Source of the DNA: Spirochaeta thermophila DSM 6192
Lineage (GTDB): Bacteria; Spirochaetota; Spirochaetia; Winmispirales; Winmispiraceae
Direction: 5' to 3'
Length of the DNA: 64,000 nucleotides
Assembly: GCF_000147075.1 (NCBI RefSeq)
Contig: NC_014484.1
Span: 310,001-374,000 of the forward strand
Shown: positions 5,748-29,600 of the stretch, piece by piece
Numbering within the stretch: the first letter of the stretch is position 1
Layout of the letters: the number at the start of each line of letters is the position of its first letter
The notes under the pieces: generated by a model
The model's database searches: none
Told to the model about the DNA's origin: nothing
The model's input: only the letters and a program-made list of their open reading frames with translations
Translations under genes and position numbers: made by a program

Positions 5748-5766
5748 ACTATCTCCTTCTTTTCGA

Positions 5767-5784
5767 AAACTAATATATCAGTTT
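5767..5784. promoter_or_regulatory. palindromic operator over the beta-mannosidase -10 box
   Basis: AAACTAATATATCAGTTT is an inverted repeat (AAACT-N8-AGTTT). On the minus strand its centre contains an extended -10 element (TGA-TATATT, hexamer at 5772-5777) that suits transcription of the beta-mannosidase gene. A repressor bound here would block that promoter; the adjacent ROK protein is the obvious candidate. Confidence 0.55.
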
Positions 5785-5802
5785 CCTGGTCATGGCATGT
5801 CT

Positions 5803-5831
5803 TTGACCATGTGGGAAATGTATGATATATT
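5803..5831 (+). promoter_or_regulatory. sigma-70 type promoter of the ROK regulator gene
   Basis: TTGACC (5803-5808), a 17-nt spacer and TATATT (5826-5831) lie about 48 bp before the ATG. A GGTCA-N11-TGACC inverted repeat (5788-5808) overlaps the -35 box and could allow autoregulation. Confidence 0.7.
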
Positions 5832-5878
5832 GTCTGAGCCTTCGTATCAACCAGTCAAAAAGATGGGAGTGATGGATC

Positions 5879-8284: not shown

Positions 8285-8320
8285 AGGAACACCTGGATCT
8301 CAGAATAATGGAGATAGATA

Positions 8321-8351
8321 AAGAAAAACCTGCAGGAACAGCTCCTGCAGG
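8321..8351 (-). terminator. intrinsic terminator after tRNA-Pro
   Basis: Read on the minus strand: stem CCTGCAGGA / TCCTGCAGG (9 bp, 5-nt loop) followed by TTTTTCTTT. It starts right after the tRNA 3' end and ends transcription before the beta-helix gene. Confidence 0.9.
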
Positions 8352-8353
8352 AG

Positions 8354-8426
8354 TCGGGCTGGGCGGATTTGAACCGCCGACCCCAGGTCCCCCAGACCTG
8401 TACGCTAACCCCTGCGCTACAGCCCG
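8354..8426 (-). tRNA. tRNA-Pro (anticodon GGG)
   Basis: 73-nt cloverleaf: acceptor stem CGGGCTG / CAGCCCG with discriminator A, anticodon stem CAGGT / ACCTG with loop CTGGGGG giving anticodon GGG, and T-arm GGCGG-TTCAAAT-CCGCC. The 3' CCA is not encoded (CTC follows), so it is added post-transcriptionally. It reads proline codons CCC and CCU. Confidence 0.96.
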
Positions 8427-8438
8427 ATGTACGAGTAC

Positions 8439-8467
8439 AAGATAGCATGGAGCGGGGGGTGTGTCAA
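8439..8467 (-). promoter_or_regulatory. promoter of tRNA-Pro
   Basis: On the minus strand TTGACA (8467-8462), a 17-nt spacer and TATCTT (8444-8439). The -35 box begins right after the stop codon of gpgS and the predicted start lies about six nt before the mature tRNA 5' end. Confidence 0.85.
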
Positions 8468-9508
8468 TTATGTATCCTCAGGAAGGGAGGGGCTCCCGGC
8501 CTTCTTGCTCCTCCGCTTTTTCCTCGGTGAGGACGTGGGCCTCTTCTCGATGTATTCGTCTATGGTGTTCATCGGAGGACGTTCTTCTTCTTGAATACGA
8601 TACTCCACCAGCTCGAATTGGTCTTCCTTCACTTGGAACTGCCTCAGTATAGTGGAGAACTCGGTGTTGGGGGTGAGGAGTTCGTAGGCTTCCATGCGTC
8701 TCAGGAAGGTCTGGAGTATGCCGAAGGCCATCTTCCCCAGCGCCCTGGTCTCCTGGTTGCGATGGACCCGCTGGTCGAGGTCGGTTTGTCCGAAGACCTC
8801 GAGGCCGTAGATCCGATAGACGTCGATGAGGTGGGCGGTCTCAACTCCGTAGCCGATGGGGAAGGGTATCTGTTCCAACACCTCGCGGCGCACTGCATAT
8901 TCACCCGATAGGGGCTGGATGATGGCGGTGAGTTCTGGAAAGAAGAGCGAGAAAAGGGGGCGCACCAGTATCTCGGTGACCCGCCCGCCGCCGGTGGGAC
9001 GTATACCCTGGGAAAAGGCGAGGGGCCTGTCGTAGAAGGCCTTGATGTACTTGAGGGAAGGGTTGTAGATGAGTGGTCCCACCAGGCCGTAGACGAAGCG
9101 GGGATGGATGTTCTTTATGTCGGCATCGATGTATACGATGATATCACCCTTGAGCTGATAGATGGCCTTCCACAGGTTCTCTCCCTTGCCCTTCCGCTCC
9201 CCCAGGTGGGGGAGGATCTCGGAGGAAAGGTACACGTCCGCTCCGAAGGAGGCGGCGATCTCCCTCGTCTTGTCCGTGGAGCCCGAATCGATGACGGCGA
9301 TTTCATCGAGAAGGGGGTAACGATGCATGAGTTCCGACTTGAAGATCACCACCTCCTTTCCGATGGTCTTCTCCTCGTTGAGGGTGGGGATGCAGAGCGA
9401 GATGGAAAGACCTTGGCGCTCCTTCTCCTGCACGAGGGCCGCGAGATCGGCGAACTGGGAGTGGTGGAACGTATGTTCCCTGATCCATGCGTTAAGGTTG
9501 AGCTTCAT
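8468..9508 (-). CDS. gpgS: glucosyl-3-phosphoglycerate synthase
   Basis: Retaining GT-A glycosyltransferase that joins glucose from a nucleotide sugar to 3-phosphoglycerate, the first step to the compatible solute glucosylglycerate. The 346 residues show the nucleotide-binding start SLCIPTLNEEKTIG at about 35-48, the DAD metal motif (YIDADIKN) near 130, PTGGGRVTEILVRP, and GYGVETAHLID, all typical of GpgS. A lysine/serine-rich tail (about 325-346) looks disordered. The ATG at 9508 overlaps the end of the M20-like gene and has GGGGG seven nt upstream; GTG at 9511 is a less likely start. The phosphatase needed for the second step is not in the window. Mannosyl transfer cannot be fully excluded. 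Confidence 0.85.
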   Translation of the reverse strand: MKLNLNAWIREHTFHHSQFADLAALVQEKERQGLSISLCIPTLNEEKTIGKEVVIFKSELMHRYPLLDEIAVIDSGSTDKTREIAASFGADVYLSSEILPHLGERKGKGENLWKAIYQLKGDIIVYIDADIKNIHPRFVYGLVGPLIYNPSLKYIKAFYDRPLAFSQGIRPTGGGRVTEILVRPLFSLFFPELTAIIQPLSGEYAVRREVLEQIPFPIGYGVETAHLIDVYRIYGLEVFGQTDLDQRVHRNQETRALGKMAFGILQTFLRRMEAYELLTPNTEFSTILRQFQVKEDQFELVEYRIQEEERPPMNTIDEYIEKRPTSSPRKKRRSKKAGSPSLPEDT

Positions 9509-11827: not shown

Positions 11828-11847
11828 TCGCACGGTGGTGCGCCCGA

Positions 11848-11874
11848 GGGGCCGGGATCCCGGCCCCTTTTCTT
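11848..11874 (+). terminator. intrinsic terminator after galM
   Basis: Perfect self-complementary GGGGCCGGGATCCCGGCCCC (11848-11867) followed by TTTTCTT. Confidence 0.9.
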
Positions 11875-11942: not shown

Positions 11943-12024
11943 GTTTAATTTATTTTTTAAACTTTTTTGCTGGATAAAAATATTTGACATAAATATTGAC
12001 TATTTATGTTATATGCGTTAGTAT
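11943..12024 (+). promoter_or_regulatory. AT-rich promoter region of the amino-sugar operon
   Basis: TTGACT (11996-12001), 17-nt spacer, TAGTAT (12019-12024) gives a start near 12031 and a leader of about 27 nt. A second -35-like TTGACA lies at 11984. Upstream is an inverted repeat GTTTAA-N8-TTAAAC (11943-11962) and a long AT tract, unlike the GC-rich surroundings; an operator or UP element is likely. Confidence 0.65.
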
Positions 12025-12057
12025 CTCCATTGAAGACCGCACGTGGGAGGATGGTTC

Positions 12058-13239
12058 ATGAAGGGAGCCGCACTCGTGGGACAGTCGGGCGGGCCGACTT
12101 CGGTGATCAATGCGAGTCTCGCCGGCATCATCGAAGGGGTACGGGAGAGATCCGGAGGCAGGATCTACGGCATGAGGTTCGGGATCGAGGGCTTCCTCGA
12201 GGGGGATCTCCTCGACCTCTCTTCCCTGCCGGATCAGGAGGTGGGACTTCTCAAGGCCACGCCCGGCTCCGCCCTGGGGTCCACGAGAAGGAAGCTCACT
12301 GACGAGGATCTGCCGCGGGTGAGGGAGCTCCTCGAAAAGTACGATATCCGTTACCTCTTTCTCATCGGTGGGAATGATACCATGGAGACCATCCACAGGG
12401 TCGAGGCCTACTGTCGGCGTACCGGATACGAGCTCTTCGGCGTAGGTGTGCCGAAGACCGTGGACAACGACCTCGTGGGCACCGATCACACGCCGGGGTA
12501 TCCCTCCGCGGCGCGGTACGTCGCTCTCTCCGTGCTCCAGGGGGGGCGCCTTGCGGCCGACATGCAGCGTGTGGACAAGTTCGCCATCTACCAAACCGTA
12601 GGGCGGGATACGGGGTGGCTCGCAGCCGCGAGTGTGGTGGCGAAGCGGCGTCCTGACGAGGCGCCTCACCTCATCTGTGTTCCCGAGCGTCCCCTCACCC
12701 TGGATCGCTTTCTCGCGGACGTGGAGCGCGCCATTGCATCGTACGGGTACTGCTACATCGTGGTGGGTGAAGGGGTGGTGTGGGAGGACGGCACCCCGGT
12801 CTCGGCCTCGCAGGAAAAGGACAGCTTCTCCAACATAGAGTTCGGCGCGATGGGAGGAGCCAGTGCAGCGTTGACCCTCCATCGCATCCTCAAGGATCGG
12901 CTCGGTCTCAGGGGCGAGTTTCAGATTCCCGAGTCGCTCGCGATGTGTGCGAGTGATCGGGTCTCGGCGATCGACAGGGAAGAGGCCTATGCCTGTGGGC
13001 GAAAGGCTGTCACGTATGCGAGCGAAGGGCGTTCGGGGATCATGGTGACCATAGAGAGGAGCTCTTCGAAGCCGTACCGGTTCACGTTGGGGAGCATTCC
13101 CCTGGGGGAGGTGGCTCGTAAGACCAAACCTATGCCCGATGAGTTCCTCACTCCGGAGGGTCATTTCGTGAGTGAGGCTTTTGAGGAGTACATCCGCCCG
13201 CTGGTGGGCGATATCGAACGCTTTGCCCGACTCTTTTAG
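12058..13239 (+). CDS. phosphofructokinase, probably PPi-dependent type
   Basis: Phosphorylates fructose 6-phosphate to the 1,6-bisphosphate. The 393 residues match the PFK family: GQSGGPTSVINASLAG at 7-22, GGND at 104-107 in place of the ATP-type GGDG, PKTVDND at 132-138 with the catalytic Asp at 136, and QTVGRDTGWLAAAS near 182. Asp at the position equivalent to E. coli Gly104 is typical of PPi-using enzymes; Asn instead of the first Asp is a variant I recall from some annotated members. The ATG at 12058 has GGGAGG seven nt upstream. It heads an operon with SIS, PIG-L and epimerase genes, so it probably carries amino-sugar-derived fructose 6-phosphate into glycolysis. Donor specificity is inferred. 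Confidence 0.85.
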   Translation: MKGAALVGQSGGPTSVINASLAGIIEGVRERSGGRIYGMRFGIEGFLEGDLLDLSSLPDQEVGLLKATPGSALGSTRRKLTDEDLPRVRELLEKYDIRYLFLIGGNDTMETIHRVEAYCRRTGYELFGVGVPKTVDNDLVGTDHTPGYPSAARYVALSVLQGGRLAADMQRVDKFAIYQTVGRDTGWLAAASVVAKRRPDEAPHLICVPERPLTLDRFLADVERAIASYGYCYIVVGEGVVWEDGTPVSASQEKDSFSNIEFGAMGGASAALTLHRILKDRLGLRGEFQIPESLAMCASDRVSAIDREEAYACGRKAVTYASEGRSGIMVTIERSSSKPYRFTLGSIPLGEVARKTKPMPDEFLTPEGHFVSEAFEEYIRPLVGDIERFARLF

Positions 13240-13257
13240 GAATGTGTGGAGGTGATG

Positions 13258-14268
13258 ATGAAGCGCACGCAGGACTATATGCGGTTTTCTCTTGTAAAAG
13301 AGATGGCAGAGACTCCGGAAGTCATCAGGAGGTTTCCGGTGGACGAGGTGCGGGAGGAGTTCTCGTTGGTGGGGGAGAGGGGCCGCCTCCTCCTCACAGG
13401 CGAGGGCTCTTCCCGGATCTTCCCCGCAGGGAATGTGAGGGCCTCGCTGCTTCGTGAGGGGAGCCCCGTGAGGGTGGAGGTGGAAGGGGCGATGCAGGCC
13501 CGGGAGTATACCCTGGATGGGTGGGGGGTCTTTGTGGCTTCCAACTCGGGGAAGACGGCAGAGGGGGTGAGGCTCCTCGCTTCGCTCCGGGAGAAGGCGC
13601 GTGATGTGGTGGTGGGTGCAGTGGTGGGGAGGAAGGACTCCCCTATAGGGAGGGGAGCGGATGCGGTGTACGAGCTCCGGTGCGGTCCTGAGGAGGCGGT
13701 GGCGGCGACCAAGTCGGTGGTGGAGCAGGCCTTTTTCTACGATGTGGTTCTGAGGGGCGAGAAGGCTGCCGCTCGAAGGGATGAGCTCGCCGCCCTCATC
13801 GAGGAGGTCTTTTGGATGGATCTTCCTGAGGAACTGGTCCGGCCTCTCGTGGGAGCCCCTGTGCTGTACTTCGCCGGTCGGAACAACGGGGTGGCGGAGG
13901 AGCTCACCCTCAAGACGAACGAGATTACCCGGAAGAAGTCGGACTACCTCGAGGGTACATACGCGGTCCATGGGATCGAAGAGGTGATGAGTCCCGAAGA
14001 GGTGGTGGTGCTCATCGACCCCTTTGAGGAGGAAGAGGATAAATTCGCCTCTGTGCTCGAGGAGGGGGTGGGTGTGAAGGTGCTCGCTATCGCGCACAGG
14101 GAGACCCGTTTCCCCACGATTCTGCTTCCCCAGGTGGAGCAAGGGTGCGCTCCCTATCTTCAGTTGGTGGCAGGGTGGAATCTTCTCGTGGAGGTGGGGG
14201 TGCGGTCGGGTATACATCTCGACAAGCCGCAGAGAGCACGTAAAGTCGGAAACGAATTCGTGGGGTGA
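13258..14268 (+). CDS. SIS-domain sugar isomerase (GlmS isomerase-like; GlcN6P deaminase?)
   Basis: 336-residue protein with two SIS sugar-phosphate domains like the isomerase half of GlmS, but no glutaminase domain. Seen: LLTGEGSSRIFPAGNV and the phosphate loop VFVASNSGKTAEGV (about 92-105) in the first SIS; TKSVVEQAFFYD linking helix; GRNNGVAEELTLKTNEITRKK and YAVHGIEEVM in the second, matching GlmS regions around its LKxGP segment. Such stand-alone proteins act as deaminating isomerases on amino-sugar phosphates (archaeal GlmD or AgaS type). Start ATG 13258 has GGAGG five nt upstream; ATG 13255 is possible. Eighteen bp separate it from the PFK gene, consistent with GlcN6P to Fru6P conversion followed by phosphorylation. 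Confidence 0.8.
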   Translation: MKRTQDYMRFSLVKEMAETPEVIRRFPVDEVREEFSLVGERGRLLLTGEGSSRIFPAGNVRASLLREGSPVRVEVEGAMQAREYTLDGWGVFVASNSGKTAEGVRLLASLREKARDVVVGAVVGRKDSPIGRGADAVYELRCGPEEAVAATKSVVEQAFFYDVVLRGEKAAARRDELAALIEEVFWMDLPEELVRPLVGAPVLYFAGRNNGVAEELTLKTNEITRKKSDYLEGTYAVHGIEEVMSPEEVVVLIDPFEEEEDKFASVLEEGVGVKVLAIAHRETRFPTILLPQVEQGCAPYLQLVAGWNLLVEVGVRSGIHLDKPQRARKVGNEFVG

Positions 14269-14272
14269 GTGT

Positions 14273-15082
14273 ATGCAGGTAAAGATACGAGATGAACGCA
14301 CGGGAAAGGTGGTCGTACATGAGCGTCTTGCCGAGGCCTTTCCTCGGTGGCAACCGCAGGAACGGTGGCTCTTCATATCTCCCCATGATGACGATGTGCT
14401 CATCGGTGGAGGTATTCTCCTTCAACGGGCACTGGAAGAGGGGGTGGATGTCCACGTCCTGGTGACCACGGATGGGGCGCAGGGGTACTGTGATCTCTCC
14501 CTCCGGGATTCTATTGTCGAAGTGCGGAGGGAGGAGACGGCCCTCGCGTATCGAGCGATAGGGGTGCACCAGGTCCATCTCCTGGATTTTCCCGATGGGA
14601 GCCTTCATCTGTTCAAGGGGAGGCGGAGGGCTCAGGATGGTGATCCTGGGATGATTGAGGGGTACACGGGACTTCAGAATGCCCTCACCTTTTTCTATCG
14701 GAAGCTCCTCCCTTCGCGGGTGTTCCTCATGTCCCTCAACGACTATCACCCGGACCACAAGGTGGTCCACGAGGAGGCCATTATCTCTTTGTTTCATGCG
14801 CACAATCCCATATGGGCGGAGCTCGGCCCACCCACCGGTGGGTTCCCTCGGGTCTATGAACTCGCCGCATACGGTGATTTTGTGGCCCTTCCTTCGATTC
14901 GCGTGGAGGGAACCAAGGAATTGAAGGAGCGAAAACTCCGGGCGCTCGATCTCTTCGTCTCCCAGAAGGAGATTATCGCCTCGCTGGTGTCCATCCTGAG
15001 GGAGCGTCCGGCGGTCGAGTATGTGAGGGAGTACGGTTTCAAGCTCTACGATCCTGCAGTGTATGAAGCGTTTTTCTCTTGA
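14273..15082 (+). CDS. PIG-L family deacetylase (LmbE-like)
   Basis: Zinc-dependent N-deacetylase acting on N-acetylglucosamine-type substrates. The 269 residues show the metal motif PHDDD at 37-41 in LFISPHDDDVLIGGG and the third ligand region DYHPDHK near 157-163. No signal peptide, so cytoplasmic. It starts four nt after the SIS gene and overlaps the following epimerase by 20 bp. In archaeal chitin catabolism a PIG-L enzyme deacetylates GlcNAc2 before an exo-glucosaminidase and a SIS deaminase act; the neighbours here (SIS, GH20, GH9) fit the same logic. The exact substrate is not proven. Confidence 0.85.
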   Translation: MQVKIRDERTGKVVVHERLAEAFPRWQPQERWLFISPHDDDVLIGGGILLQRALEEGVDVHVLVTTDGAQGYCDLSLRDSIVEVRREETALAYRAIGVHQVHLLDFPDGSLHLFKGRRRAQDGDPGMIEGYTGLQNALTFFYRKLLPSRVFLMSLNDYHPDHKVVHEEAIISLFHAHNPIWAELGPPTGGFPRVYELAAYGDFVALPSIRVEGTKELKERKLRALDLFVSQKEIIASLVSILRERPAVEYVREYGFKLYDPAVYEAFFS

Positions 15083-15992
15083 CTGCGGTGTGGAGGTGGT
15101 GAGGCTGGAGGGGGAGCGTTGCGCAGTGGAGGTGATTCCCGGGTTGGGGGGTATCGTGAGGCAGATGTGGTGGGTCTTCGGGGGGGAGCCCCACCGACTC
15201 CTCGTGGAGGATGCGCCTGAGGAGCTCCTCGCGAACCCCTGGTTTCGGGGGCGGCTTCTCTTTCCGTTCAATGATCGTATTCCGGGTGGTGTGTATTGCT
15301 TTGAGGGGAGGGAATACGCATTTCCGTGCACCGAAGGAGATGATGCGCTTCACGGTTTCCTCTGGCAGAGACCCATGAGGGTGAGGCGGGGTGGGGAGAC
15401 GAGAGAGGGGGAATGGCTGGAGTGCGAGTACGTCACCGATGGGTCGGACAGAGGATACCCGTTCGAGGTGGGGCTGCGTGTGAGGTATGAGGTGGGGGGA
15501 GACGGGTTCTCTCTGCGTGCCCACGTGTGGAACGCGGGAGGTGTCGCGGCGCCCGTGAGCATAGGGTGGCACCCCTATGTCTCTCCAGGGGCCGGGATGC
15601 AGGTGGACGATCTGGTGCTCCGGATTCCTGCAGAGGCTGTACTCGAGGTGGACGAACGGCTTCTCCCTACGGGCAGGATACTTCCGGTCGGTGGGACGCC
15701 GTGGGATTTCAGGGCCGGGCGAAGGTTGGGCTCGACCCCCTGCGACATGGGCTTCTTTCTTTTCGGGAAGGAGAGGATGATCGCGGTTTCCGCGGACAGG
15801 TATCGCCTCATCATGCGCCTCGGGGGGATCTTCTCCTATGTCCAGGTCTTCGTGCCGCCTCAGAGGGATGGGGTTGCGGTGGAGCCGGTGGCGTCGCTCA
15901 CGGACGGCTTCAATCATCCTGAGTGGGGCGCGCCCGTCCTCAAGCCGGGGGAGCACAGGTGGGGAGAGGTGTGGATAAGGGCGGAGAGGTGA
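15063..15992 (+). CDS. aldose 1-epimerase-like protein
   Basis: 309-residue member of the galactose-mutarotase fold, divergent from galM at 10796. Visible landmarks: LPFN-type strand LLFPFNDRIPGGVYCF, HGFLWQRPM (His near 98), GWHPYVSPG (His near 169) and VEPVASLTDGFN near 277. The start is ATG 15063 inside the PIG-L gene; 20-bp overlap implies coupling. It closes the first operon, since an AT-rich promoter region follows. It is likely to epimerise the sugar handled by the locus, possibly an amino sugar. Confidence 0.8.
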   Translation: MKRFSLDCGVEVVRLEGERCAVEVIPGLGGIVRQMWWVFGGEPHRLLVEDAPEELLANPWFRGRLLFPFNDRIPGGVYCFEGREYAFPCTEGDDALHGFLWQRPMRVRRGGETREGEWLECEYVTDGSDRGYPFEVGLRVRYEVGGDGFSLRAHVWNAGGVAAPVSIGWHPYVSPGAGMQVDDLVLRIPAEAVLEVDERLLPTGRILPVGGTPWDFRAGRRLGSTPCDMGFFLFGKERMIAVSADRYRLIMRLGGIFSYVQVFVPPQRDGVAVEPVASLTDGFNHPEWGAPVLKPGEHRWGEVWIRAER

Positions 15993-16000
15993 AAGTTCGA

Positions 16001-16045
16001 TTTATAAACCAATATCAAATAATTCATTTTATAAACTAATTCATC
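16001..16045. promoter_or_regulatory. repeated TTTATAAACY element upstream of the ABC operon
   Basis: TTTATAAACC (16001-16010) and TTTATAAACT (16028-16037) are direct repeats 27 bp apart, each followed by AAT (AAACCAAT, AAACTAAT). The same AAACTAAT starts the palindrome between beta-mannosidase and ROK at 5767. Likely regulator sites. Confidence 0.45.
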
Positions 16046-16105
16046 ATTTTTCTTTTACTTGCGATCAAAAGATAAAAAATAAATAAACAAGTTAAAAAGT
16101 TTTTA

Positions 16106-16134
16106 TTGACAGCGGCATGGACCCGTTGTACAAT
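16106..16134 (+). promoter_or_regulatory. promoter of the sugar ABC transporter operon
   Basis: Perfect TTGACA (16106-16111), 17-nt spacer, TACAAT (16129-16134). The start near 16141 gives a leader of about 50 nt and rules out translation starts before that. Confidence 0.9.
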
Positions 16135-16191
16135 ACTCGAGGATCCCCGTTGGGGAGGACGACCTTTCGTTTGATGAGTGAGGAGGATGTG

Positions 16192-17478
16192 ATGAAGAGA
16201 GTCTTGTGCCTCATGCTCACGCTTTTCCTGCTGGCGGGAACGATCTTCGCTGGCGGGGAAAAGGAAGGGGCGGTGGCTGGCAAAGTCACGCTCGACGTGC
16301 TCGCGTACGGTGATGCGGCCAACGTGGAGGGACAGCAGTGGATCAATATAGTGGAGGGATTCATGAGCGAGAATCCCAACATCGAGATCAAGTATGAGCT
16401 CCTCTACGACGAGGCGTATCACCAGAAGCGGACGGCTCGTATCGCAGCCGGCGATGTGCCCGATCTCGCCTATCTGGGCGCCGATGCGAGGTGGGGAAAG
16501 GACTGGATGGAGGCGGGCCTTCTCGTGGATCACAGGGAGTGGCTCGATCCTGAATACTATGACCTGAGCCTCATCCCGTCCATGGGGCCCAACGGCGAGG
16601 TATGGTACGTGCCGCTCGGCACCTCCAACATCACCACGGTCCTCTACATGAACCGTGCCCTGGTGGAGCAGCTCGGCTTCTCCGCACCCAAGACCTATGA
16701 GGATCTCGTCGCCATGGTGCCTGCCGCCCGGGCGAAGGGCCTCAATGTGGTCGAGATCGCAGGGGCCGATGGATGGGTGTGGGGCTCCTGTCTCATGTCG
16801 GGGATCGTGGGCAGGGTCACCGGCGATCCCGCCTGGGTGCAGAAGGCGGTGAAGGGGGAGAAGAAGTTCACCGATCCCGAGTTTGTCGCCTCTCTCGCGC
16901 TGCTGAAGAAGATGGTGGACGACGGGGTGCTCTCCTCCAAATCTCTGCTCGTGAACTACGGAACCGCCCTCTCCAACTTCAACAACCAGAAGGCGCTCTT
17001 CATGATCGACGGGCAGTGGAGAGCCGGTGGTATAGATCCTACCCTTGCCGAGAACGTGGAGCTCCTTCCGATTCCCACGCTTCCTGGTGAGAAATCCAAT
17101 GTGGCCGGCTCCGCTGCAGCCGCCATCTCGGTGGGATACGGTCTCACCAAGGTTGGGGCTGAGGATCCTGCGAAGCGCGAGGCGGGACTCAGGTTCCTCC
17201 AGTACTTCAACAGCCCGATGTGGGTCGAGCAGCGGCTCCGGGACGGTGCCATCGTGGCCCCCATTCTCAAGAACTTCCCGCTTCCGGATGACCTTCCCAC
17301 CATCGTGAAGAGGAAGGTGGTCTTCGCGCAGGGCGTGAAGGTGATCACCGACGTGATCGACGCTCATCTCTCGGGCGCCGCCAATGACGCCCTCAACGCA
17401 GGGATGCAGAAGATCGTGGGTGGCCAGGCCACGCCTGAAGAGGTGGCTGCTCAGGTGGAAAAGCTCGCCAGACAGTAA
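16192..17478 (+). CDS. sugar ABC transporter substrate-binding protein
   Basis: Periplasmic binding protein of the extracellular solute-binding family 1 (CUT1-type). The 428 residues begin with a signal peptide (about 1-20, VLCLMLTLFLLAGTIFA; no lipobox Cys at the cleavage site) and contain typical segments: FMSENPNIEIKYELL, GDVPDLAYLGADARW, WYVPLGTSNITTVLYMNRALVEQLG, and KALFMIDGQWR. AGGAGG at 16181 serves the ATG at 16192. Two permease genes follow; no ATPase gene is present, so a shared MsmX/MalK-like ATPase elsewhere is expected. Context suggests an N-acetylhexosamine oligosaccharide as ligand. Confidence 0.92.
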   Translation: MKRVLCLMLTLFLLAGTIFAGGEKEGAVAGKVTLDVLAYGDAANVEGQQWINIVEGFMSENPNIEIKYELLYDEAYHQKRTARIAAGDVPDLAYLGADARWGKDWMEAGLLVDHREWLDPEYYDLSLIPSMGPNGEVWYVPLGTSNITTVLYMNRALVEQLGFSAPKTYEDLVAMVPAARAKGLNVVEIAGADGWVWGSCLMSGIVGRVTGDPAWVQKAVKGEKKFTDPEFVASLALLKKMVDDGVLSSKSLLVNYGTALSNFNNQKALFMIDGQWRAGGIDPTLAENVELLPIPTLPGEKSNVAGSAAAAISVGYGLTKVGAEDPAKREAGLRFLQYFNSPMWVEQRLRDGAIVAPILKNFPLPDDLPTIVKRKVVFAQGVKVITDVIDAHLSGAANDALNAGMQKIVGGQATPEEVAAQVEKLARQ

Positions 17479-17506
17479 TAGGATTCTCGGTAGAGGGAAA
17501 GTGTGC

Positions 17507-17538
17507 GTGTGGGGGAGGAGTTCCCTCCCCCACACTTT
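17507..17538 (+). terminator. hairpin between binding protein and permease genes
   Basis: Perfect 12-bp stem GTGTGGGGGAGG / CCTCCCCCACAC with a 5-nt loop, followed only by TTT. This is the usual place for a partial terminator or mRNA-stabilising hairpin that keeps binding-protein expression above that of the permeases. Confidence 0.7.
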
Positions 17539-17560
17539 CGCAGGAAAGGAGCGTGCGTTG

Positions 17561-18475
17561 ATGACCGTTCGAGAACGAAGAGAATTGATGGGCTACTTTT
17601 CCCTGGTGGGGCCGGCCCTGCTCCTGTACACCCTCATTCTCGCCTATCCGGTGGTGTTCTCCCTGGGCTTGAGTTTCACGGACTACAATCCCAACGTCGA
17701 GGGTACGGGGAAGTTCGTGGGGGTGTCTCACTATCTGAGGATGGTCCGGGATCCCCTCTTCTGGCATGCCTTCAAGAACAATCTTATCGTAGTGGCGGTC
17801 TCGGTCTTCGGACAGATCCCCATAGGCTTCGTCCTCGCGTACATCCTCTATCGGAAGATGATACGCTCACCGAGATTCTTCCAGTCCGTGATCTTCCTCC
17901 CACAGTTTCTCTCCACGATCGTGGTGGGTATCCTCTGGAAACGCCTCTTCGAGGCGGATGGCCCGGTGGCACGGCTCATTCAGTGGTTCACCCGAGATCC
18001 TTCAGCACAGTTCGATTACATGTTACGGCCGGAGACCGTGATGTATCCCATCGCCTTCGTGCTCCTGTGGATGTACACAGGGTTCTACATGGTGGTCTTT
18101 CTCGCCAATCTGCAGAAGCTCGACGCCCAGCTCATCGAGGCGGCGAAGATAGACGGGGCCACGGAGCCGCAGATCTTCGTGAAGATCATCATGCCCCTTC
18201 TGTCGGGGACCATCCTCGTCTCCTCCATACTCGCCATTGCAGGGTCGCTCAAGAGCTTCGATCTCATCTTTGCCATCACCGACAGGGGGCTCACCCGTCA
18301 GAATGCCCTGGTACTCTCGATCTACATGTATCAGGTGGGATTCCACAACTACGATGATCCGCTCCGCTTCGCCTACGGGGCGACCATCGCCAACAGCATC
18401 ATCTTCATCAGCGTGGGACTCATCCTCCTCGCGAATTTCATATCGCGACGGTTCGCATCGAGAGGAGTGGAGTGA
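17561..18475 (+). CDS. sugar ABC transporter permease, MalF/UgpA type
   Basis: 304-residue inner-membrane subunit with about six TM helices (first at about 14-36, LVGPALLLYTLILAYPVVFSLGLS). The EAA loop that contacts the ATPase reads EAAKIDGATEPQIFVKIIMPLL near 195-216 (EAAKIDGATEPQIF core). ATG 17561 is preceded by GGAG nine nt upstream. The stop codon overlaps the next start by one base. It works with the binding protein at 16192 and the permease at 18475. Confidence 0.93.
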   Translation: MTVRERRELMGYFSLVGPALLLYTLILAYPVVFSLGLSFTDYNPNVEGTGKFVGVSHYLRMVRDPLFWHAFKNNLIVVAVSVFGQIPIGFVLAYILYRKMIRSPRFFQSVIFLPQFLSTIVVGILWKRLFEADGPVARLIQWFTRDPSAQFDYMLRPETVMYPIAFVLLWMYTGFYMVVFLANLQKLDAQLIEAAKIDGATEPQIFVKIIMPLLSGTILVSSILAIAGSLKSFDLIFAITDRGLTRQNALVLSIYMYQVGFHNYDDPLRFAYGATIANSIIFISVGLILLANFISRRFASRGVE

Positions 18476-19611
18476 TGACAGGAACCAACGGCACGCACAT
18501 CGTGGAAGGTAAAAGATCGCTTCCCGAGCGGGTGCTCATCATAGTCTCGAGGGTGTTCGCCTACGTGTTCCTCGGGTCATGGGCCCTGGTGACGCTTCTC
18601 CCCCTGTTCTGGCTCTCGTATTCCTCGTTCAAGTCGAACGAGGAGCTCAACAGGGACATCTTCGCGTTTCCGTACGAGCTCTTCGCCAACAGTGAAGACG
18701 AGTATGTGGTGATACGGCCCAGCCCGACCCTTAGGTATCCCTATGATCCTAAGAAGGATACGCGTGAGCGGCTCATCATCGAGTCCACCTCTATCGCCCC
18801 CCAGCGGCGGATCCACGTGTTCTTCCTTCCCAAGGACGAGTTGCCCCCGCACATCGCCTCCCTCGAACCGGGGGACACCCTGCGGGTGAGGGACCTTCCT
18901 CCGAAGTTCCAGCGTGAGATCCACTGGAAGACGGTGTTCTTCAACTACATCTCGGCGATCTCCTACGGAAAGCTGGCCGGTAAGTTTGTCAACAGCGTGA
19001 TCTATGCGGGCGTGTCCACGGTGCTCATCGTGCTCTTGAGCATCATGGTGGGGTTTGGTCTCAGCAAGTTCCCCTTTCGGAGGCTCTCACAGATCATCGG
19101 TGGGTACTTCGGCCTGGGGTACCTCCTGAGCATTCCCTCGATCATCATCCCCCTGTTCCTTCTCATGAGGAGCCTGCACCTGGTGGACACCAGGATCGGG
19201 GTGATCCTCGTCTACACCGCCTTTGGGCTCCCTCTCGGGGTGATGCTCTCCACCCAGTTCATCTCGGGGCTTCCGTCGAGCCTGGTGGAGTCCGCGGCGA
19301 TAGACGGGGCCTCGGTCTTCAGGACCTTCTGGAGCGTGATCCTCCCCATGTCCATGCCGGTGGCGGTCACCATCGCCATCATCAACGGGTTGGGGATATG
19401 GAACGAGTTCGTCCTCGTGCTGGTGCTCGCGAGCTCCGAGGCGACCAAGTCGCTGCCTGTGGCGGTGTATGCCTTTACCTCGCTCACGAGCACACAGCTC
19501 GGGTGGCAGCTCGCCGCCCTCGTGCTGGTGACCCTTCCGGTGGTGATCCTGTATCTCGCCTTCAACAAGCGGATCACGGAGGGGGTCGTGGCCGGGGCGA
19601 TCAAGGGGTGA
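18475..19611 (+). CDS. sugar ABC transporter permease, MalG type, with large periplasmic insert
   Basis: 378 residues, about 100 more than usual MalG proteins. TM1 lies at about 20-45, followed by an unusual hydrophilic stretch (about 50-150) rich in charged and beta-prone segments (RIHVFFLPKDELPPH, GDTLRVRDLPPKF) before TM2 near 175. The EAA loop reads ESAAIDGASVFRTFWSVILP near 270. Coupled to the upstream permease by an ATGA-type junction. The insert sits in the first extracytoplasmic loop and may dock the binding protein or substrate. Otherwise a normal CUT1 subunit. Confidence 0.92.
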   Translation: MTGTNGTHIVEGKRSLPERVLIIVSRVFAYVFLGSWALVTLLPLFWLSYSSFKSNEELNRDIFAFPYELFANSEDEYVVIRPSPTLRYPYDPKKDTRERLIIESTSIAPQRRIHVFFLPKDELPPHIASLEPGDTLRVRDLPPKFQREIHWKTVFFNYISAISYGKLAGKFVNSVIYAGVSTVLIVLLSIMVGFGLSKFPFRRLSQIIGGYFGLGYLLSIPSIIIPLFLLMRSLHLVDTRIGVILVYTAFGLPLGVMLSTQFISGLPSSLVESAAIDGASVFRTFWSVILPMSMPVAVTIAIINGLGIWNEFVLVLVLASSEATKSLPVAVYAFTSLTSTQLGWQLAALVLVTLPVVILYLAFNKRITEGVVAGAIKG

Positions 19612-19617
19612 TGTGGT

Positions 19618-21423
19618 ATGGAAGAGCAGATCCTGAGACGGCTCGTCCATCGGCCGAGGCGTCTGGTGGTGAGAGGGGGTGTGCTGGAGGTGCCGGCCGG
19701 CGAGTGGGCGGGGCTCGAGGGGGGGCGGTACGGCCCGCCCCCTGCCGGGCCTGTCTCGTTCACCCGATCCTCCGGTCTTCCCCCTGAGGGGTTCCGGATC
19801 GCGGTGGGCGCGGGGGGAATCTCGATCGAGGCGGGGGGCGATCCAGGGGCCTTCCGCGCGGTCCAGACTCTGCGGCTCCTCGCCGATCGGGAGAAGGAGT
19901 GTGGCATGGTGTGGGTGCCGTTCGTGGAGTTGGAGGACTGGCCGGATCTTCCCCGAAGAGGGCTCATGATCGATGTGAGCAGGGACAAGGTGCCCCGCCT
20001 CTCCACGCTTTTCTGGCTCATCGATGTGTGCGCCCTCCTGGGGATCAACGAGCTCCAGCTCTACACCGAGCACACCTTTGCGTATCTGGGACACGAGCGG
20101 GTCTGGAAGGATGCGGGCGCCTATACCCCTGAGGATGTCTCCCGTATCGTCTCGTACGCGGCCGAGCGGGGTATCACGGTGATCCCCAATCAGAACTCCC
20201 TGGGCCACATGGAACGGTGGTTCGCCCACCCGGAGTACCGTATCCTGGCCGAGAAGCCCGAGGGCTTCATGGATCCGTGGGGGGTGTGGCGGGAGATCCC
20301 CACCACCCTGTGCCCTGTGGACGAGCGGGTCTTCCCCTTCCTGGAGGGTCTCTTCTCCCAGCTTCTCCCCCTCTTCCCGGCAGGGCTGTGTAATGTGGGA
20401 GGAGATGAGCCTTTCGAATTCGGGACGGGAAGGAGTGCGGATGAGGTGAAGAGGAAGGGGGCGGTGAAGGTGTACCTCGCCTACATGATGCGGCTCAAGG
20501 GGATGGTGGAGCGCTTCGGGAAAAGGATGCAGATGTGGGGGGACTTCGTGCTCTCCCACCCTGAGATACTGGGGGAGCTCCCCCGTGACGTGGAGGTGGC
20601 CGACTGGGGGTACGAGGCGGACTGTCCCTTCGAGCGGAACGCTGCCCTCCTCGCAGAGGCGGGGATCCCCTTTTCCACGTGTGTGGGAACCTCATGCTGG
20701 CTCTCCCTCGGTGGGCGATGGCCGAATGCCCGGGAGAACATACGGCGTGGGGTTCAGGCTGCCGCCGCCCATGGTGGAGAGGGGGTGCTCCTCACTGAGT
20801 GGGGTGATCAGGGACATTTCCAGCAGTGGGTCGCGATGCTCCTCCCCCTCGTTGCCTATGCCCTGGCCTCATGGCACATCTCGATCTTGGATGGTGTGGA
20901 GGAGTGGGAGGATGAGACCACACGGGTCCTCTCCTCCCACATATACAGGGATGGCTCCGGGGCCCTCGCAGAGGCACACCTCCTCCTCTCCTCTCTCCCT
21001 GCCATCGAGAAGGCCCGCTTTCACAACAGTTCGCCCTTTGCAGTACTCCTCATCGACCACGTGTATCCTTACTACCGGAAGGAGTATCCACGGCTCGCCG
21101 CTATGAGTTTCGATGAGGACGGGGAGCAGATCGAGCGCGCCTCTTCCCTCATCGCAGGCGTGGGAGGCGGGGGGATCCTGAGGGAGGAGCTCGCCTTCAC
21201 CGCCAGGATGCTGGAGTTTGCGGTGGAATTCGCACGGCACTTCCTCGCCACTCCCGACTTTTCGGTGGTGGAGATACCTCGGGAGGTGCGAAGGAGCCTC
21301 GCGGAGCATCTCGACACGCTTCTCTTCGAGTACGAGGTGCGATGGAAGCTGAGGAACAGGGAGGGGGGATTCGCGGACAGTGTGGGGAGGTTACGGGCGC
21401 TCAAGGTCCTGCTTGAGCGCTAG
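19618..21423 (+). CDS. glycoside hydrolase family 20, beta-N-acetylhexosaminidase-like
   Basis: 601 residues. A small N-terminal GH20b-like domain (about 1-110) is followed by a TIM barrel starting RRGLMIDVSRDKVP. The catalytic Asp-Glu pair of the substrate-assisted mechanism is in NVGGDEPFEFG near 262-264, and the active-site tryptophans appear in MQMWGDFV and LLTEWGDQGH. There is no signal peptide, so it cleaves imported oligosaccharides in the cytoplasm. It starts seven nt after the permease gene, with a weak GGTG-type RBS. Removal of terminal GlcNAc or GalNAc is the family activity; substrate here is inferred from the locus. Confidence 0.88.
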   Translation: MEEQILRRLVHRPRRLVVRGGVLEVPAGEWAGLEGGRYGPPPAGPVSFTRSSGLPPEGFRIAVGAGGISIEAGGDPGAFRAVQTLRLLADREKECGMVWVPFVELEDWPDLPRRGLMIDVSRDKVPRLSTLFWLIDVCALLGINELQLYTEHTFAYLGHERVWKDAGAYTPEDVSRIVSYAAERGITVIPNQNSLGHMERWFAHPEYRILAEKPEGFMDPWGVWREIPTTLCPVDERVFPFLEGLFSQLLPLFPAGLCNVGGDEPFEFGTGRSADEVKRKGAVKVYLAYMMRLKGMVERFGKRMQMWGDFVLSHPEILGELPRDVEVADWGYEADCPFERNAALLAEAGIPFSTCVGTSCWLSLGGRWPNARENIRRGVQAAAAHGGEGVLLTEWGDQGHFQQWVAMLLPLVAYALASWHISILDGVEEWEDETTRVLSSHIYRDGSGALAEAHLLLSSLPAIEKARFHNSSPFAVLLIDHVYPYYRKEYPRLAAMSFDEDGEQIERASSLIAGVGGGGILREELAFTARMLEFAVEFARHFLATPDFSVVEIPREVRRSLAEHLDTLLFEYEVRWKLRNREGGFADSVGRLRALKVLLER

Positions 21424-21447
21424 GTCTTCCCTGTGGGAGGTGCTAAT

Positions 21448-23310
21448 GTGAGTATTCGACAGCGCCTCGGTCTTGTGCTCGGACTCATCGTGGTGAGTTT
21501 CGTGGTGGTGCTGGTGGTGGGCCGATTCAAGGATCGGGTGGTGGAGGAGGTGCGCGAGGTGCAGGTCCAGGCCCTCAGGGTGCTTTCGCTTGCTCATGAG
21601 GTGATGGTGGAAAACGTGGATCTCATTGCCTATGAGATAGATCTGCGGCCAAACAACTATCTGCACCTGGTGGTGAAGGAGTGGGAGGAGAAGGTGGGGG
21701 CGTTTGAACGGGCCTTCACCGACCTCATGGACATGAGAGGTATTGTCTGGCTTCCTGCGGAGCTTCGCGATAACCTCATGAAGGCATCCCGTTTCTGGGA
21801 GGAGGCGAGGAAGGGGCTTCCTGAGATCTCCGAAGGGATAGCGCGTATCGTACGCTCAGAACTCCTGCCGCTTGAGCAGACAAGGGGGCTCATGGAGGTG
21901 CATCGCTACCTCATGGCCCTGCCGGAACCTCCCTCAGATCTCGTGTGGAGTGTGCAGAACACGTGGACGAAACTGAAGGGGCTCAATGCCACCTTTCAGG
22001 ACTTTGTGGGAAGGCAGCTCGCCCCTTTGAGCGAGGAGATTACCCACTACGTGGGTACCCTCTCTCGTACCGCCTCTTTGGTGCAGATTGGGGTGAGTGT
22101 GGCGGTGCTCCTCTCGAGCGGGGTGTTTGTCTTTTTGGTGATCCATGCCCTTGGTCAGGGAATCTCCTCTATCTCTCAGGGGGTGGTCCATGTAGTGGAG
22201 GAGAAGGACCTTACCGCATCTCTTGAGGGTGCTCGCTCTGATGAGCTTGGGAGGATACGCGAGGGGTTCAACACGGTGGTAAGGGAGTTCAGGGGTTTCC
22301 TCACCGCGGTCTCGAACCTTGTGGAGAAGGTTGCGGAGCTTCACAGGGCGCTCAGCACGAGTTCGGAAGAGGTGGTGGCCTCGGTGGAGGAGATCAACCG
22401 CAACCTCGCCTCCCTTCAAGAGGTGGCACGGGGGGTGGATCGGAGCTCGCAGCAGACCCTTGATGCCATCGATAGGATACATAAGGAGATGGCAACCATC
22501 ACCGAGGAGACGGCCACGTATGCGGCGAGGGTGGATGAGAGCACGGCGGCGCTCGAGAAGGTCCATGCCCTCGTGAGGAGAGTGAGCGAGCTTTCTTCTG
22601 ACTATAGGGAACAGGTGTTGCACCTTGTGCGCCAGCTAGAGGTTTCGGGCGAGAAGGTCCGTGAGAGTGCCTCGGTGGTGGGGGATATCCACAGCGAGGT
22701 GCACAAGATTCAGGAGATCATCGAGATCATCAACACCATTGCCTCCCAGACCAACCTGCTCTCGATCAATGCGGCCATCGAGAGTGCGCACGCGGGTGAG
22801 TACGGCAAGGGATTTTCTGTGGTGGCGGAGGAGATACGAAAGCTTGCGGAATCTTCCTCTCAGTATGCTTCGCGCATAGAAGGGTCGCTCAGGAAGATCG
22901 TAGAGGAGGTCTCCCTGGCACTCAAACAGAGTGAGGGAAGCGAGCAGGCCTACCACGAGGTCTCGGATCTGATGAGGAGGGTGGAGGATGCCCTTGGTGA
23001 GATCATGGAGGCGATTCACCAGCTTGCCGACTCGACCGGCACAGTGCACGAGGTGCTGAGACTGTTTTCTGAGGGGGCGAGAAGGATCACCGAGGGTGTG
23101 AGGACGATCACCAAGGAGACCGAAGGGATCCACGTCGCTGCCCAGGATGCCCGTTCGCGTGCGGAGACCCTCTCCCGCGGTATGGACGAGATTGCGTTAG
23201 GAGGCCGGGAGATCCTCCAAGCGGTGACGCATACTCGGGAGCTCGCCCAGCAGACGGCGACTGTGGTAGCCTCCCTCCGGGACCACCTCTCCCTATTTCG
23301 GATTGAATAG
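21448..23310 (+). CDS. methyl-accepting chemotaxis protein
   Basis: 620-residue chemoreceptor. TM1 at about 7-25, a short helical sensor (about 26-205), TM2 at about 208-232, HAMP, and a signalling domain with the tip [15 protein letters not shown] then [15 protein letters not shown] at about 434-470. The start is GTG 21448, seven nt after GGGAGG; the upstream GTG 21433 lies in front of that site. It sits between GH20 and GH9 genes of the amino-sugar locus, probably guiding movement towards the same sugars, perhaps via the binding protein at 16192 (inference). Confidence 0.93.
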
Positions 23311-23363
23311 CGGAAGTCTCTTCTATGAGCTTCCGTATGCTATGATACTTACAAGGAAAGTGT

Positions 23364-25037
23364 ATGAAGAAGCAGGTATTCATCTCCCATGCAGGGTATC
23401 CCAGAGAGGGGATGAAGTACGTGGTGGTGGAGTCAGAGGTGCCTGTGGAGGGGGTGTTCCGGGTGGTGGATACGAGAGGAGAGGTGGTATACGAGGGCAG
23501 GTTCGATCCCCCGGTGAAGGTGCCAGGATGGAGGCGTGGGTGGTTCGCGAGGGGTGAGTTCTCTGAGGTGAGGGAGCCGGGTGAGTACGCGGTGTGTCTC
23601 GAGGATGGGGTGCGGTCGGAGTACTTTCCTATTGTCGAAGGGTTTCCCTCGCTCTTCCTCGAGGATATCGTCTTCTACTTCAGGGGCCAGCGGTGCTCGG
23701 GGGTGTACGACAGAAAGGACCGGGGGGTGCCTCTCTTCGGTTCGGACCGGAAGGTGGACGTGCACGGGGGCTGGTACGATGCGGCAGGGGATTTCAGCAA
23801 GTATCTCTCCCACCTGGCCTACACCAACTTCATGTGCCCTCAGCATACGGGTCTGGTCGTGTGGGCCTTTCTTCACGGGCACGATCTCCTCAAAAGCCGA
23901 GGGTTCCCGGAGTTCAGTCTCGCGCGCATACGGGAGGAGGCGCTCTACGGCGCCGACTTCCTGGTGCGGATGCAGGATCCGGAGGGGTTCTTCTACCTCA
24001 CGGTCTTCGACCGGTGGTCGCACGATCCTGAAGAGCGGGAGGTCTGCAGCTACGAGACCCAGCAGGGGATGAAGACCGCGGACTACAAGGCGGGGCTCAG
24101 GATGGGGGCAGGGGCGGCGATCGCCGCCCTCGCACGGGCCTCTCTCCTCGGGGAGGCCTCCGACTACACCCCTGAGGTGTACCTCGCCACCGCGGAGCGG
24201 GGGTTCGCGCACCTTCGCGCACACAATGCGGAGTACCTTCCCGATGGAACGGAGAACATCATCGACGAGTACTGTGGCCTGCTCGCGGCGGTGGAGCTCT
24301 ACAGGGCCACCGGGAAGGTGGCATACCGGAAGGCGGCCGAGGAGTTCTTCTCACGGCTCGAGGGGCGGCTCACTCCCGAGGGGGTGCTCATGGCGGACGA
24401 GAGGGGCCAGCGGTCGTTCTTCCATGCGGTGGAGGCGGGCTTCCCGTATGTGAGCGTGCTCCGGATGCGTGAGGTGCTGGACGAGGGGGGACTGGGGGCG
24501 AGGGCCGAGGAGTTTGTGGCTCGAGGGCTTTCCGCCGAGGTGGAACGGACACATGAGGTGCCCAACCCGTTCGGCTATCCTCGTCAGTACGTGAAGCTTC
24601 CCGGAAGGGAGGGGCGGGTCCAGTTCTTCATCCCGCACGAGAACGAGAGCGGCTACTGGTGGCAGGGGGAGAACGCGCGCCTGGCCTCCCTCGCGGCTGC
24701 GGCCTTCTGGGCTGCCGGTGAGGGGATAGGGGACGGGGAGCTCTGGGCCTACGGCGAGGCGCCGATCTACTGGATACTGGGGCTCAATCCCTTCGACGTG
24801 TGCATGATGCAGGGGAAGGGGCGTCATAGCCCTGCGTATGAGCGGGGCTTCCCCAACGCGCCGGGAGGGATCTGCAACGGGATCACCTCGGGGGTGGAGG
24901 ACGAGGAGGACATCGCCTTCCTTCCCGAGCCGTACGCCTCGGACATGGCGCACCGGTGGCGGTGGGCGGAGCAGTGGATCCCTCACGCGGCATGGTTCTT
25001 CCTCGCCCTGTCGATATACGCACACTACAGGGGGTGA
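23364..25037 (+). CDS. glycoside hydrolase family 9 (possible exo-glucosaminidase)
   Basis: 557 residues: an N-terminal Ig-like CelD_N domain (about 1-95, starting [19 protein letters not shown]) and an (alpha/alpha)6 barrel. The catalytic base region [13 protein letters not shown] is at about 134-146; the C-terminal acid Glu should lie in [10 protein letters not shown] near 511-520. No signal peptide, which is unusual for a cellulase but fits GH9 exo-beta-glucosaminidases or oligosaccharide hydrolases acting inside the cell. With a PIG-L deacetylase and a SIS deaminase in the same locus, cleavage of chitosan-type oligosaccharides is a good hypothesis; cello-oligosaccharides are the alternative. 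AAGGAAAG precedes the ATG. Confidence 0.85.
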
Positions 25038-25084: not shown

Positions 25085-26404
25085 ATGGAGAAGATGTCGT
25101 TCGAGATTGCCACGCTGGGTACTCCCAAGATCCCTTCCCCCATCGGTCTTTCCACGGTGGTGGGGGATTCGATCGCCAACTATGTGAGCGACGAGGAGGG
25201 GGTCCTCCACCGAATAGAGGTGCGGAAGGGCGAGCAGGTGGCCGCGGATGAGACCGTGGTGCTCGAGAAGGCGGGGCCCCGCGAGCGGCTCTACTTCGAT
25301 CCCAAGCACGTGCACGCAGGGATCGTCACCTGCGGGGGGCTCTGTCCGGGGCTCAACGATGTGATACGGTCGATCGTCCGGTGTTTGTGGCTCCGCTACG
25401 GGGTGAGGAGGATCTCCGGTATCCAGTTCGGCTATCGGGGGCTGCTCCCCGAGTACCAGTACCCGGTGATCCCCCTCGATCCCGAGGTGGTGGACGATAT
25501 CCACAAGCTGGGAGGTACGATTCTGGGTTCTTCCCGGGGCGGGGGGGAGCGGACCGAGGAGCTGGTGGATGCCCTCGAGCAGCTCAACATCAACGTGCTC
25601 TTCACGATCGGGGGGGACGGGACCCAGCGGGGGGCGTTGCGGATGGCGAAGGAGATCGAGCGCCGGGGGCTCAAGATCGCGGTGGTGGGGGTGCCGAAGA
25701 CCATCGACAACGACATCATGTACATCGACAAGTCGTTCGGGTTCGAAACCGCGGTGGCGCTCGCGGCCCAGGCGGTCTCGGCGGCGCACACCGAGGCGCA
25801 CTCGGCCATCAATGGGATAGGGTTGGTGAAGGTGATGGGGAGGGAGTCGGGGTTCATCGCGGCGCACACGGCGCTGGCGGTGCACGAGGCGAACTTCGTG
25901 CTCATCCCCGAGGTGCCGTTCGACCTCGAGGGTGAGAACGGCCTGCTGGCCCACCTGGAGCGGCGGCTCGCGCGTCGCAACCACGCGGTGATCATCGTGG
26001 CGGAGGGGGCGGGTCAGGACCTGATGGGCCCCTCCGAGGAGCGGGACGAGTCGGGGAACGTGAAACTGCGGGACGTCGGGGCGTTCCTGAAGGATCGCAT
26101 AAAGGAGCACTTCTCCAGGCGCGGTATCCCCATCAACCTGCGCTACATCGATCCGAGCTACATGATCCGCAGCGCGCCGGCGTGTGCCTCCGATTCGGTG
26201 TACTGCTCGAGGCTGGGGACGAATGCGGTGCACGCGGCCATGGCGGGTAAGACGCGGCTCGTGATCGGGCTGGTGAACAACCACTTCGTCCACCTCCCGA
26301 TGGAGGTGGTGGTCTCCCAGCGGAAGAGGATCGATCCCGAGGGGAGTCTGTGGCGGGATGTGCTCGAGGCCACGCAGCAGCCTTTGCGGATGAAGAACGA
26401 CTAG
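25085..26404 (+). CDS. ATP-type 6-phosphofructokinase (spirochaete/plant-like clade)
   Basis: 439 residues. Motifs: [15 protein letters not shown] near 84-98, nucleotide loop GGDGT near 175-179 (Gly at the donor-discriminating position, as in ATP enzymes), PKTIDND near 204-210 with catalytic Asp, and [12 protein letters not shown] near 252. Length and the long N-terminal extension resemble the second PFK of Borrelia and Treponema. ATG 25085 lies seven nt after a -10 box with no Shine-Dalgarno; ATG 25094 with a GGAG is an alternative. Together with the PPi-type enzyme at 12058 it gives the cell two PFK systems. Donor specificity follows from the motif, not from assay. Confidence 0.88.
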
Positions 26405-29575: not shown

Positions 29576-29583
29576 GATATACT
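29554..29583 (+). promoter_or_regulatory. promoter of the LuxR-type sensor regulator
   Basis: TTGCTT (29554-29559), 18-nt spacer, TATACT (29578-29583). The start near 29590 leaves a leader of about 11 nt that contains GGGGGAGG directly before ATG 29601, excluding the earlier in-frame ATGs. Confidence 0.7.
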
Positions 29584-29600
29584 TCCGTAAAGGGGGAGGT

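Follow-up and report, generated by a model that had tools for sequence, protein, structure and literature searches.

Gene content and organization of the locus

The window analyzed here is a stretch of 64,000 nucleotides, positions 310001-374000 of the genome of Spirochaeta thermophila DSM 6192 (NC_014484.1), which is a single contig of 2,472,645 bases, and the subject of this study is a group of genes at window positions 12043-25037 that an earlier note, made from the sequence alone, had described as an amino-sugar oligosaccharide locus. The genes named in that note as lying in one orientation were all confirmed on the + strand, and the curated Pfam cut-offs were passed where they were tested. 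The first four genes, which we call cassette A, encode a pyrophosphate (PPi)-type phosphofructokinase (PFK1, 12043-13239), an SIS protein (13246-14268), a PIG-L deacetylase (14273-15082) and an aldose 1-epimerase-like protein (15063-15992; Pfam PF01263, Aldose_epim). Cassette B comprises a solute-binding protein (about 16192-17478), with an open reading frame listed from 16117 and a start at 16192 favored by ribosome-binding site and signal peptide, two ABC permeases of the MalF type (17552-18475) and the MalG type (18472-19611), both matching PF00528, a GH20 beta-N-acetylhexosaminidase (19618-21423; PF00728, 4e-23) and a putative GH9 exo-beta-glucosaminidase (23364-25037). An MCP chemoreceptor gene (21433-23310; PF00015) lies between the two hydrolase genes. 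The GH20 and GH9 proteins are both predicted to be cytoplasmic, and no signal peptide could be read at the start of either. The importer is of the CUT1 type and no ABC ATPase gene lies in the locus; a sugar kinase gene is missing there as well, as the earlier note had observed.

An AT-rich gap of ~200 bases with a good promoter-like site (16106-16134, + strand, sigma-70-like, TTGACA-17-TACAAT, 11/12 matches) separates the epimerase gene from the binding protein gene, and another sigma-70-like site precedes PFK1 (11996-12024, + strand, TTGACT-17-TAGTAT). These two sites suggest two transcription units in the locus, and they are only suggestive since the total of promoter-like sites was no higher than in shuffled sequence.

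Identity of the predicted deacetylase, deaminase and phosphofructokinase

In a profile search based on 17 relatives of the PIG-L protein, the Pyrococcus diacetylchitobiose deacetylases (Dac) ranked first (3e-17), followed by TT1542 (1.5e-11) and BshB (6e-9), and Dac was also first by fold when the AlphaFold model (pLDDT 93) was compared (E 6e-14, TM 0.67), with other PIG-L enzymes, LnmX (1.6e-13) and BC1534 (2.7e-13), close behind. The protein has the PIG-L fold and retains the metal motif HDDD...HPDH, and Dac is its nearest relative among the PIG-L enzymes. We do not claim Dac membership for a protein with an identity of only about 20%; it is predicted to be Dac-like and to act on diacetylchitobiose, (GlcNAc)2, and/or N-acetylglucosamine (GlcNAc), with deacetylation of (GlcNAc)2 at the non-reducing end as a prediction.

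The SIS protein was grouped by profile with the GlmS isomerase domains, Shewanella NagB-II and Pyrococcus GlmD, and the same group was returned by fold (model pLDDT 93). It has the two-SIS fold with a catalytic Glu, His and C-terminal Lys, in that E226, H242 and K333 are invariant in 58 homologues in two alignments and align with the catalytic residues of GlmS, which we take to be E488, H504 and K603. The curated models were not reached: the score was 28.8 bits for the NCBIfam NagB-II model, which has a cut-off of 430, and a Bacteroidales homologue scored 31.5 bits for the GlmD model in comparison to a cut-off of 580. We predict the protein to be a glucosamine-6-phosphate (GlcN-6-P) deaminase/isomerase, nearest to the GlcN-6-P synthase/deaminase group. 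As in the NagB-II and AgaS-type deaminases, an SIS protein would carry out the deaminase step, while the SIS protein of the window differs from these in forming a separate clade that is tied to PIG-L and PPi-PFK. By profile, PFK1 is an ordinary PPi-PFK, with 411 bits for NCBIfam PRK14072 (diphosphate--fructose-6-phosphate phosphotransferase, cut-off 273) and with the PPi-PFKs 3k2q and 3hno as its nearest solved structures.

The glycoside hydrolases, the importer and the chemoreceptor

The GH9 protein matched the structures from Vibrio parahaemolyticus (3h7l, 1e-162), Vibrio cholerae VC0615 (6gdt, 3e-157) and Photobacterium PBPRA0520 (5dgq, 9e-156) nearly without gaps across residues 4-555, in comparison to only about 1e-4 for ordinary GH9 cellulases. 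It keeps the DAxGD and E catalytic motifs and the long loops closing the -2 subsite, which have been named for the Vibrio-type GH9 enzymes (PMC6096475). By these full-length matches it is a relative of the Vibrio exo-glucosaminidases and not a cellulase-like surprise. VC0615 and PBPRA0520 prefer (GlcN)2; VC0615 digests (GlcN)2 fast and cellobiose at a lower rate, and it does not attack (GlcNAc)2 (PMC6096475).

In the GH20 protein the GGDE catalytic motif can be read, and the protein is 42% identical to a GH20 that is adjacent to GH9 in another spirochaete genome (G376). The best solved relatives of the binding protein are NagB1 and NagB2 of Paenibacillus, binders of (GlcNAc)2/3 (7e-21), a match taken as supporting evidence only because a xylo-oligosaccharide-type binder scores close behind. 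In comparison to the corresponding operon of two related spirochaete genomes (G370 and G376), the binding protein is 58-59% and the permeases are 63-64% identical, with 64% for the MalF-type permease and, in G376, 63% for the MalG-type one. The earlier note had proposed that GH9 and GH20 replace the archaeal glucosaminidase, and GH9 does appear in the place of GlmA, but the arrangement is not odd, being known in Vibrio and as a spirochaete operon. In Vibrio chitin catabolism, the GH9-GH20 pair works with the importer encoded in the operon.

In the sister species (G041), the GH20 and GH9 genes are 237 bases apart with no MCP gene, and the alignment breaks at 21403/23376. The ligand region of the MCP gave no Pfam match. 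The chemoreceptor is probably an insertion specific to the window species that lies outside the conserved system, and it may be a passenger. Its absence from the sister species makes the "sense" part of the integrated sense-import-degrade unit proposed in the earlier note weak, and the chemoreceptor was dropped as an integral part.

A PFK-PIG-L-SIS core across phyla

Of the 393 Spirochaetota genomes sampled, 21 have the SIS protein, and in most of these PFK and PIG-L genes adjoin it; the epimerase comes after PFK-SIS-PIG-L in related spirochaetes too. A scan of named genomes gave 80 further SIS loci, from Planctomycetota, Bacteroidota, Spirochaetota, Fibrobacterota and others. Neighbors were counted for the 53 SIS loci flanked by 3.5 kb or more on either side, the DUF4954 clade described below being left out; PFK was present in 40/53, always on the same strand, PIG-L in 33/53 and both in 32/53, counts which are not an unbiased sample because the SIS homologues had been collected in similarity searches that started from the window protein. 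PFK-PIG-L-SIS is a core shared by members of Spirochaetota, Planctomycetota, Bacteroidota and Fibrobacterota. The PFK, which had been considered dedicated to this locus, is linked to SIS and PIG-L in these four phyla and is therefore part of the core rather than of the window locus alone. The chances seem about even that the core constitutes a widespread bacterial module for amino-sugar catabolism in its own right, alternative to NagA-NagB, which uses a PIG-L deacetylase, has PPi-PFK as a fixed partner and is joined in Winmispira to a Vibrio-type GH9/GH20 import cassette.

Two PIG-L subtypes occur at SIS loci, the second being BshB1-like by profile and placed between PFK and SIS. Other neighbors vary: Bacteroidales cores include a kinase of the ROK glucokinase family together with a CBM9-like protein that shows no evident signal peptide (as at L139:4249-5205 and 5291-5944), GH20 adjoins the core in two spirochaetes, phosphotransferase system (PTS) genes come after the core in G376, and some cores adjoin Gfo/Idh and GalE-like genes. 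A PF07090 glutamine-amidotransferase-like gene is found in many Planctomycetota cores (e.g., L078:7194-7976).

Separately, 18 SIS proteins from Bacteroidota, Planctomycetota, Cloacimonadota, Calditrichota and Spirochaetota form one clade with full support and have as their partner, in place of PFK and PIG-L, a 734-residue DUF4954/DUF6819 left-handed beta-helix protein (L122:5752-7956, SIS at 8007-9023, and 17 other loci).

Probable joining of two cassettes and the candidate regulator

The Vibrio-type GH9 was found in 10 of the 393 Spirochaetota genomes, 7 of which also have SIS (hypergeometric P 4.7e-8 with no kinship correction; three families, f1, f18 and f19). Both cassettes were found in other spirochaetes as separate units: G370 and G376 have a ROK-binding protein-permease-permease-GH9-GH20 operon apart from their PFK-SIS-PIG-L-epimerase operon, and a third genome (G138) has a transporter-GH9 unit immediately upstream of the LacI/LuxR regulator and proS that it shares with the window, with the PFK-SIS-PIG-L unit elsewhere. 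Since the cassettes lie apart in these three genomes, the window locus looks like a joining of the two, and the best reading is that it is a locus for chitin-disaccharide catabolism built from two older cassettes, PFK-SIS-PIG-L-epimerase (A) and binding protein-permeases-GH20/GH9 (B), which lie next to each other in both Winmispira genomes.

A ROK-family repressor with an N-terminal winged helix-turn-helix (HTH) domain (5879-7078, + strand; Pfam ROK and HTH), 6 kb upstream of the genes described in the earlier note, is 40% identical to the ROK protein beside the G370/G376 operon. It probably belongs to the locus and would regulate the transporter/hydrolase cassette; among the upstream palindromes compared across the operons, no shared ROK-site motif stood out.

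In G323, which is without the window-type SIS, a transporter-GH9-ROK locus includes a BadF-family kinase (L172:5584-6552) and is nearer to the Vibrio layout, and in G380 a GH94 phosphorylase-like gene adjoins GH9 (L167:6846-8900).

Amino-sugar functions in the rest of the genome

Absences at genome scale are based on profile searches. No NagA match was found in the S. thermophila genome, in the sister species or in G138. The sole PF01182 match in the genome was rejected as NagB, as it scores as 6-phosphogluconolactonase (pgl; 136 bits, over the cut-off), and a canonical NagA-NagB pathway was accordingly not found in the genome, which makes SIS and PIG-L its best candidates for GlcNAc catabolism.

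The kinase gap in the locus is real. The genome has no GspK/NAGK-type BadF kinase, the only BadF domains being in tandem in a protein of ~1,530 residues, and no ADP-dependent glucokinase (PF04587); the PF00349 hexokinase search gave no match in the genome and none in control genomes either, which leaves it uninformative. The candidates, both encoded outside the locus, are one PF02685 glucokinase (at 718 kb) and one ROK kinase (at 1.97 Mb), which is fructokinase-like and below the cut-off. One GH18 chitinase is encoded (L072:6548-8518), with 656 residues, two CBM5/12 modules and a lipoprotein-signal-like N-terminus; a GH18 match is present also in G138 and absent in the sister species. A cellobiose phosphorylase-like gene is also present.

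Proposed pathway and alternative explanations

From gene content, family and fold membership, conservation and the absence of NagA and NagB, all observed directly, we consider with a probability of about 0.72 that the locus imports and catabolizes chitin-derived oligosaccharides, each reaction being inferred from family membership. The amino-sugar locus with archaeal-type deacetylase and deaminase logic envisaged at the outset gains support from the similarity of PIG-L to Dac, of SIS to GlmS, NagB-II and GlmD, of GH9 to the Vibrio/Photobacterium exo-glucosaminidases, and of the binding protein to its Paenibacillus relatives. The co-occurrence of GH9 with SIS, the GH18 chitinase in the genome and the recurrence of the PFK-PIG-L-SIS core, in places beside a ROK kinase or a GH20, also speak for the pathway. 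In the proposed pathway, the exported GH18 chitinase would make (GlcNAc)2, which the ABC importer would bring into the cytoplasm, where GH20 would cleave it to GlcNAc; in a parallel route, PIG-L would deacetylate (GlcNAc)2 and GH9 would then cleave GlcN-GlcNAc. PIG-L may also convert GlcNAc to glucosamine (GlcN), from which an unlinked kinase, either the PF02685 glucokinase or the ROK kinase, would make GlcN-6-P, which SIS would deaminate to fructose-6-phosphate and PPi-PFK would turn into fructose-1,6-bisphosphate. A deacetylase would be needed for GH9 to act on imported chitobiose, because the relatives of GH9 cut (GlcN)2 and not (GlcNAc)2; in Thermococcus, Dac supplies the deacetylated substrate to GlmA (PMC6566704).

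Several observations weigh against this pathway. The kinase is not encoded in the locus, PIG-L and SIS are only about 20% identical to their characterized relatives, and the neighbor counts carry the sampling bias stated above. The sister species has the locus and no GH18 match, so that it would have to rely on other organisms for its chitin fragments, and NagA is also present in several SIS-bearing genomes, where the core may act on a different amino sugar.

The order of deacetylation and phosphorylation could also be reversed, with the sugar phosphorylated first and PIG-L acting on GlcNAc-6-P in place of NagA and SIS in place of NagB. This order would agree with the absence of NagA and NagB, with the PTS genes after the G376 core, which would deliver phosphorylated sugar, and with the Bacteroidales locus, where a ROK kinase gene comes ahead of PIG-L and SIS, but Dac, the nearest characterized relative of PIG-L by sequence and fold, acts on unphosphorylated sugar (PMC6566704), and the deacetylated disaccharide that GH9 needs would not arise if phosphorylation always came first. 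We consider this order unlikely and favor PIG-L acting before phosphorylation, given its similarity to Dac and given that GH9 is present.

There is a slim chance that the locus handles a different N-acetylhexosamine, for instance GalNAc or a glycan from a host or from peptidoglycan, with SIS being AgaS-like and the PFK a tagatose-6-phosphate kinase. The dedicated PFK beside SIS, the variable specificity of GH20, and the presence of the core in NagA-bearing genomes and beside Gfo/Idh and GalE-like genes are consistent with it; however, SIS is nearest to the GlcN-6-P group, the profile match of PFK1 is that of an ordinary PPi-PFK, the locus showed no tagatose-bisphosphate aldolase, and GH9 and the binding protein point to chitin sugars. 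Slightly slimmer is the chance that two unrelated operons became adjacent by accident, as the separate cassettes in G370, G376 and G138 and the separate promoter-like sites might indicate, given that GH9 and SIS co-occur in the three families even when unlinked and that both Winmispira genomes retain the adjacency. A cello-oligosaccharide or beta-glucoside locus is very improbable even though the organism degrades cellulose and VC0615 slowly hydrolyzes beta-glucosides and cello-oligosaccharides, as VC0615 and PBPRA0520 favor (GlcN)2 (PMC6096475), GH20, PIG-L and SIS would have no role on cellobiose, and a cellobiose phosphorylase-like gene is already in the genome.

Comparison with known systems

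Each half of the locus has a known model, Vibrio for GH9, GH20 and the importer, and Thermococcales for Dac and SIS. Like the Thermococcales pathway (ChiA, Dac, GlmA and GlmD), the window has a Dac-related PIG-L and a GlmD-related SIS protein with an exo-glucosaminidase step between them and GH18 upstream. The differences are that GH9 replaces the GH35 GlmA, that GH20, a CUT1-type importer and a linked PPi-PFK are added, and that PIG-L and SIS have the low identity to the archaeal enzymes given above; no GH35-type GlmA was found in the locus, the part of the genome searched for it. In Vibrio chitin catabolism, GH9 and GH20 work with an importer (PMC6096475), and the Vibrio operon with VC0615 likewise clusters GH9, GH20 and an ABC importer, with cytoplasmic hydrolysis, whereas the window locus is without a BadF/GspK kinase and a GH94 phosphorylase, its genome is without NagA and NagB, and PIG-L and SIS are added.

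The combination of a deacetylase with GH9 in a bacterium has already been proposed: for Chitinispirillum alkaliphilum, deacetylation of the GlcNAc dimer followed by a cytoplasmic GH9 chitobiase was proposed from the genome, which differs in having mostly exported polysaccharide deacetylases and in the annotation of ordinary kinase, NagA-type and NagB-type steps (PMC4814513). The cross-phylum PFK-PIG-L-SIS core, which is the most interesting part, was not found described, and no paper on PIG-L with SIS or with GlcN-6-P deaminase was found, in a literature search that was incomplete and had most subscription journals outside it.

If the proposed pathway is true, many bacteria with empty NagA and NagB searches could nonetheless utilize chitin sugars through a route described until now in archaea, and automated annotation would miss this PIG-L/SIS route. 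Three linked uncharacterized protein families would gain a testable substrate, pyrophosphate-based glycolysis would be linked to amino-sugar use, and growth on chitin or its dimers would be predicted for an organism known as a degrader of cellulose and hemicellulose.

Flanking genes

Upstream of PFK1, a GalM-like epimerase gene (+ strand) ends at 11827 and is followed by a terminator-like hairpin (11846-11869). Directly after GH9 lies a second PFK gene, of the ATP type (25088-26404; PRK06830, 686 bits), so that the locus is flanked by two PFK genes of different types. Further on, a LacI-type sensor is apparently fused to a C-terminal LuxR-type HTH (29460-31730, read from the sequence), and a 42% identical copy of this regulator is found beside proS at the same place in G138.

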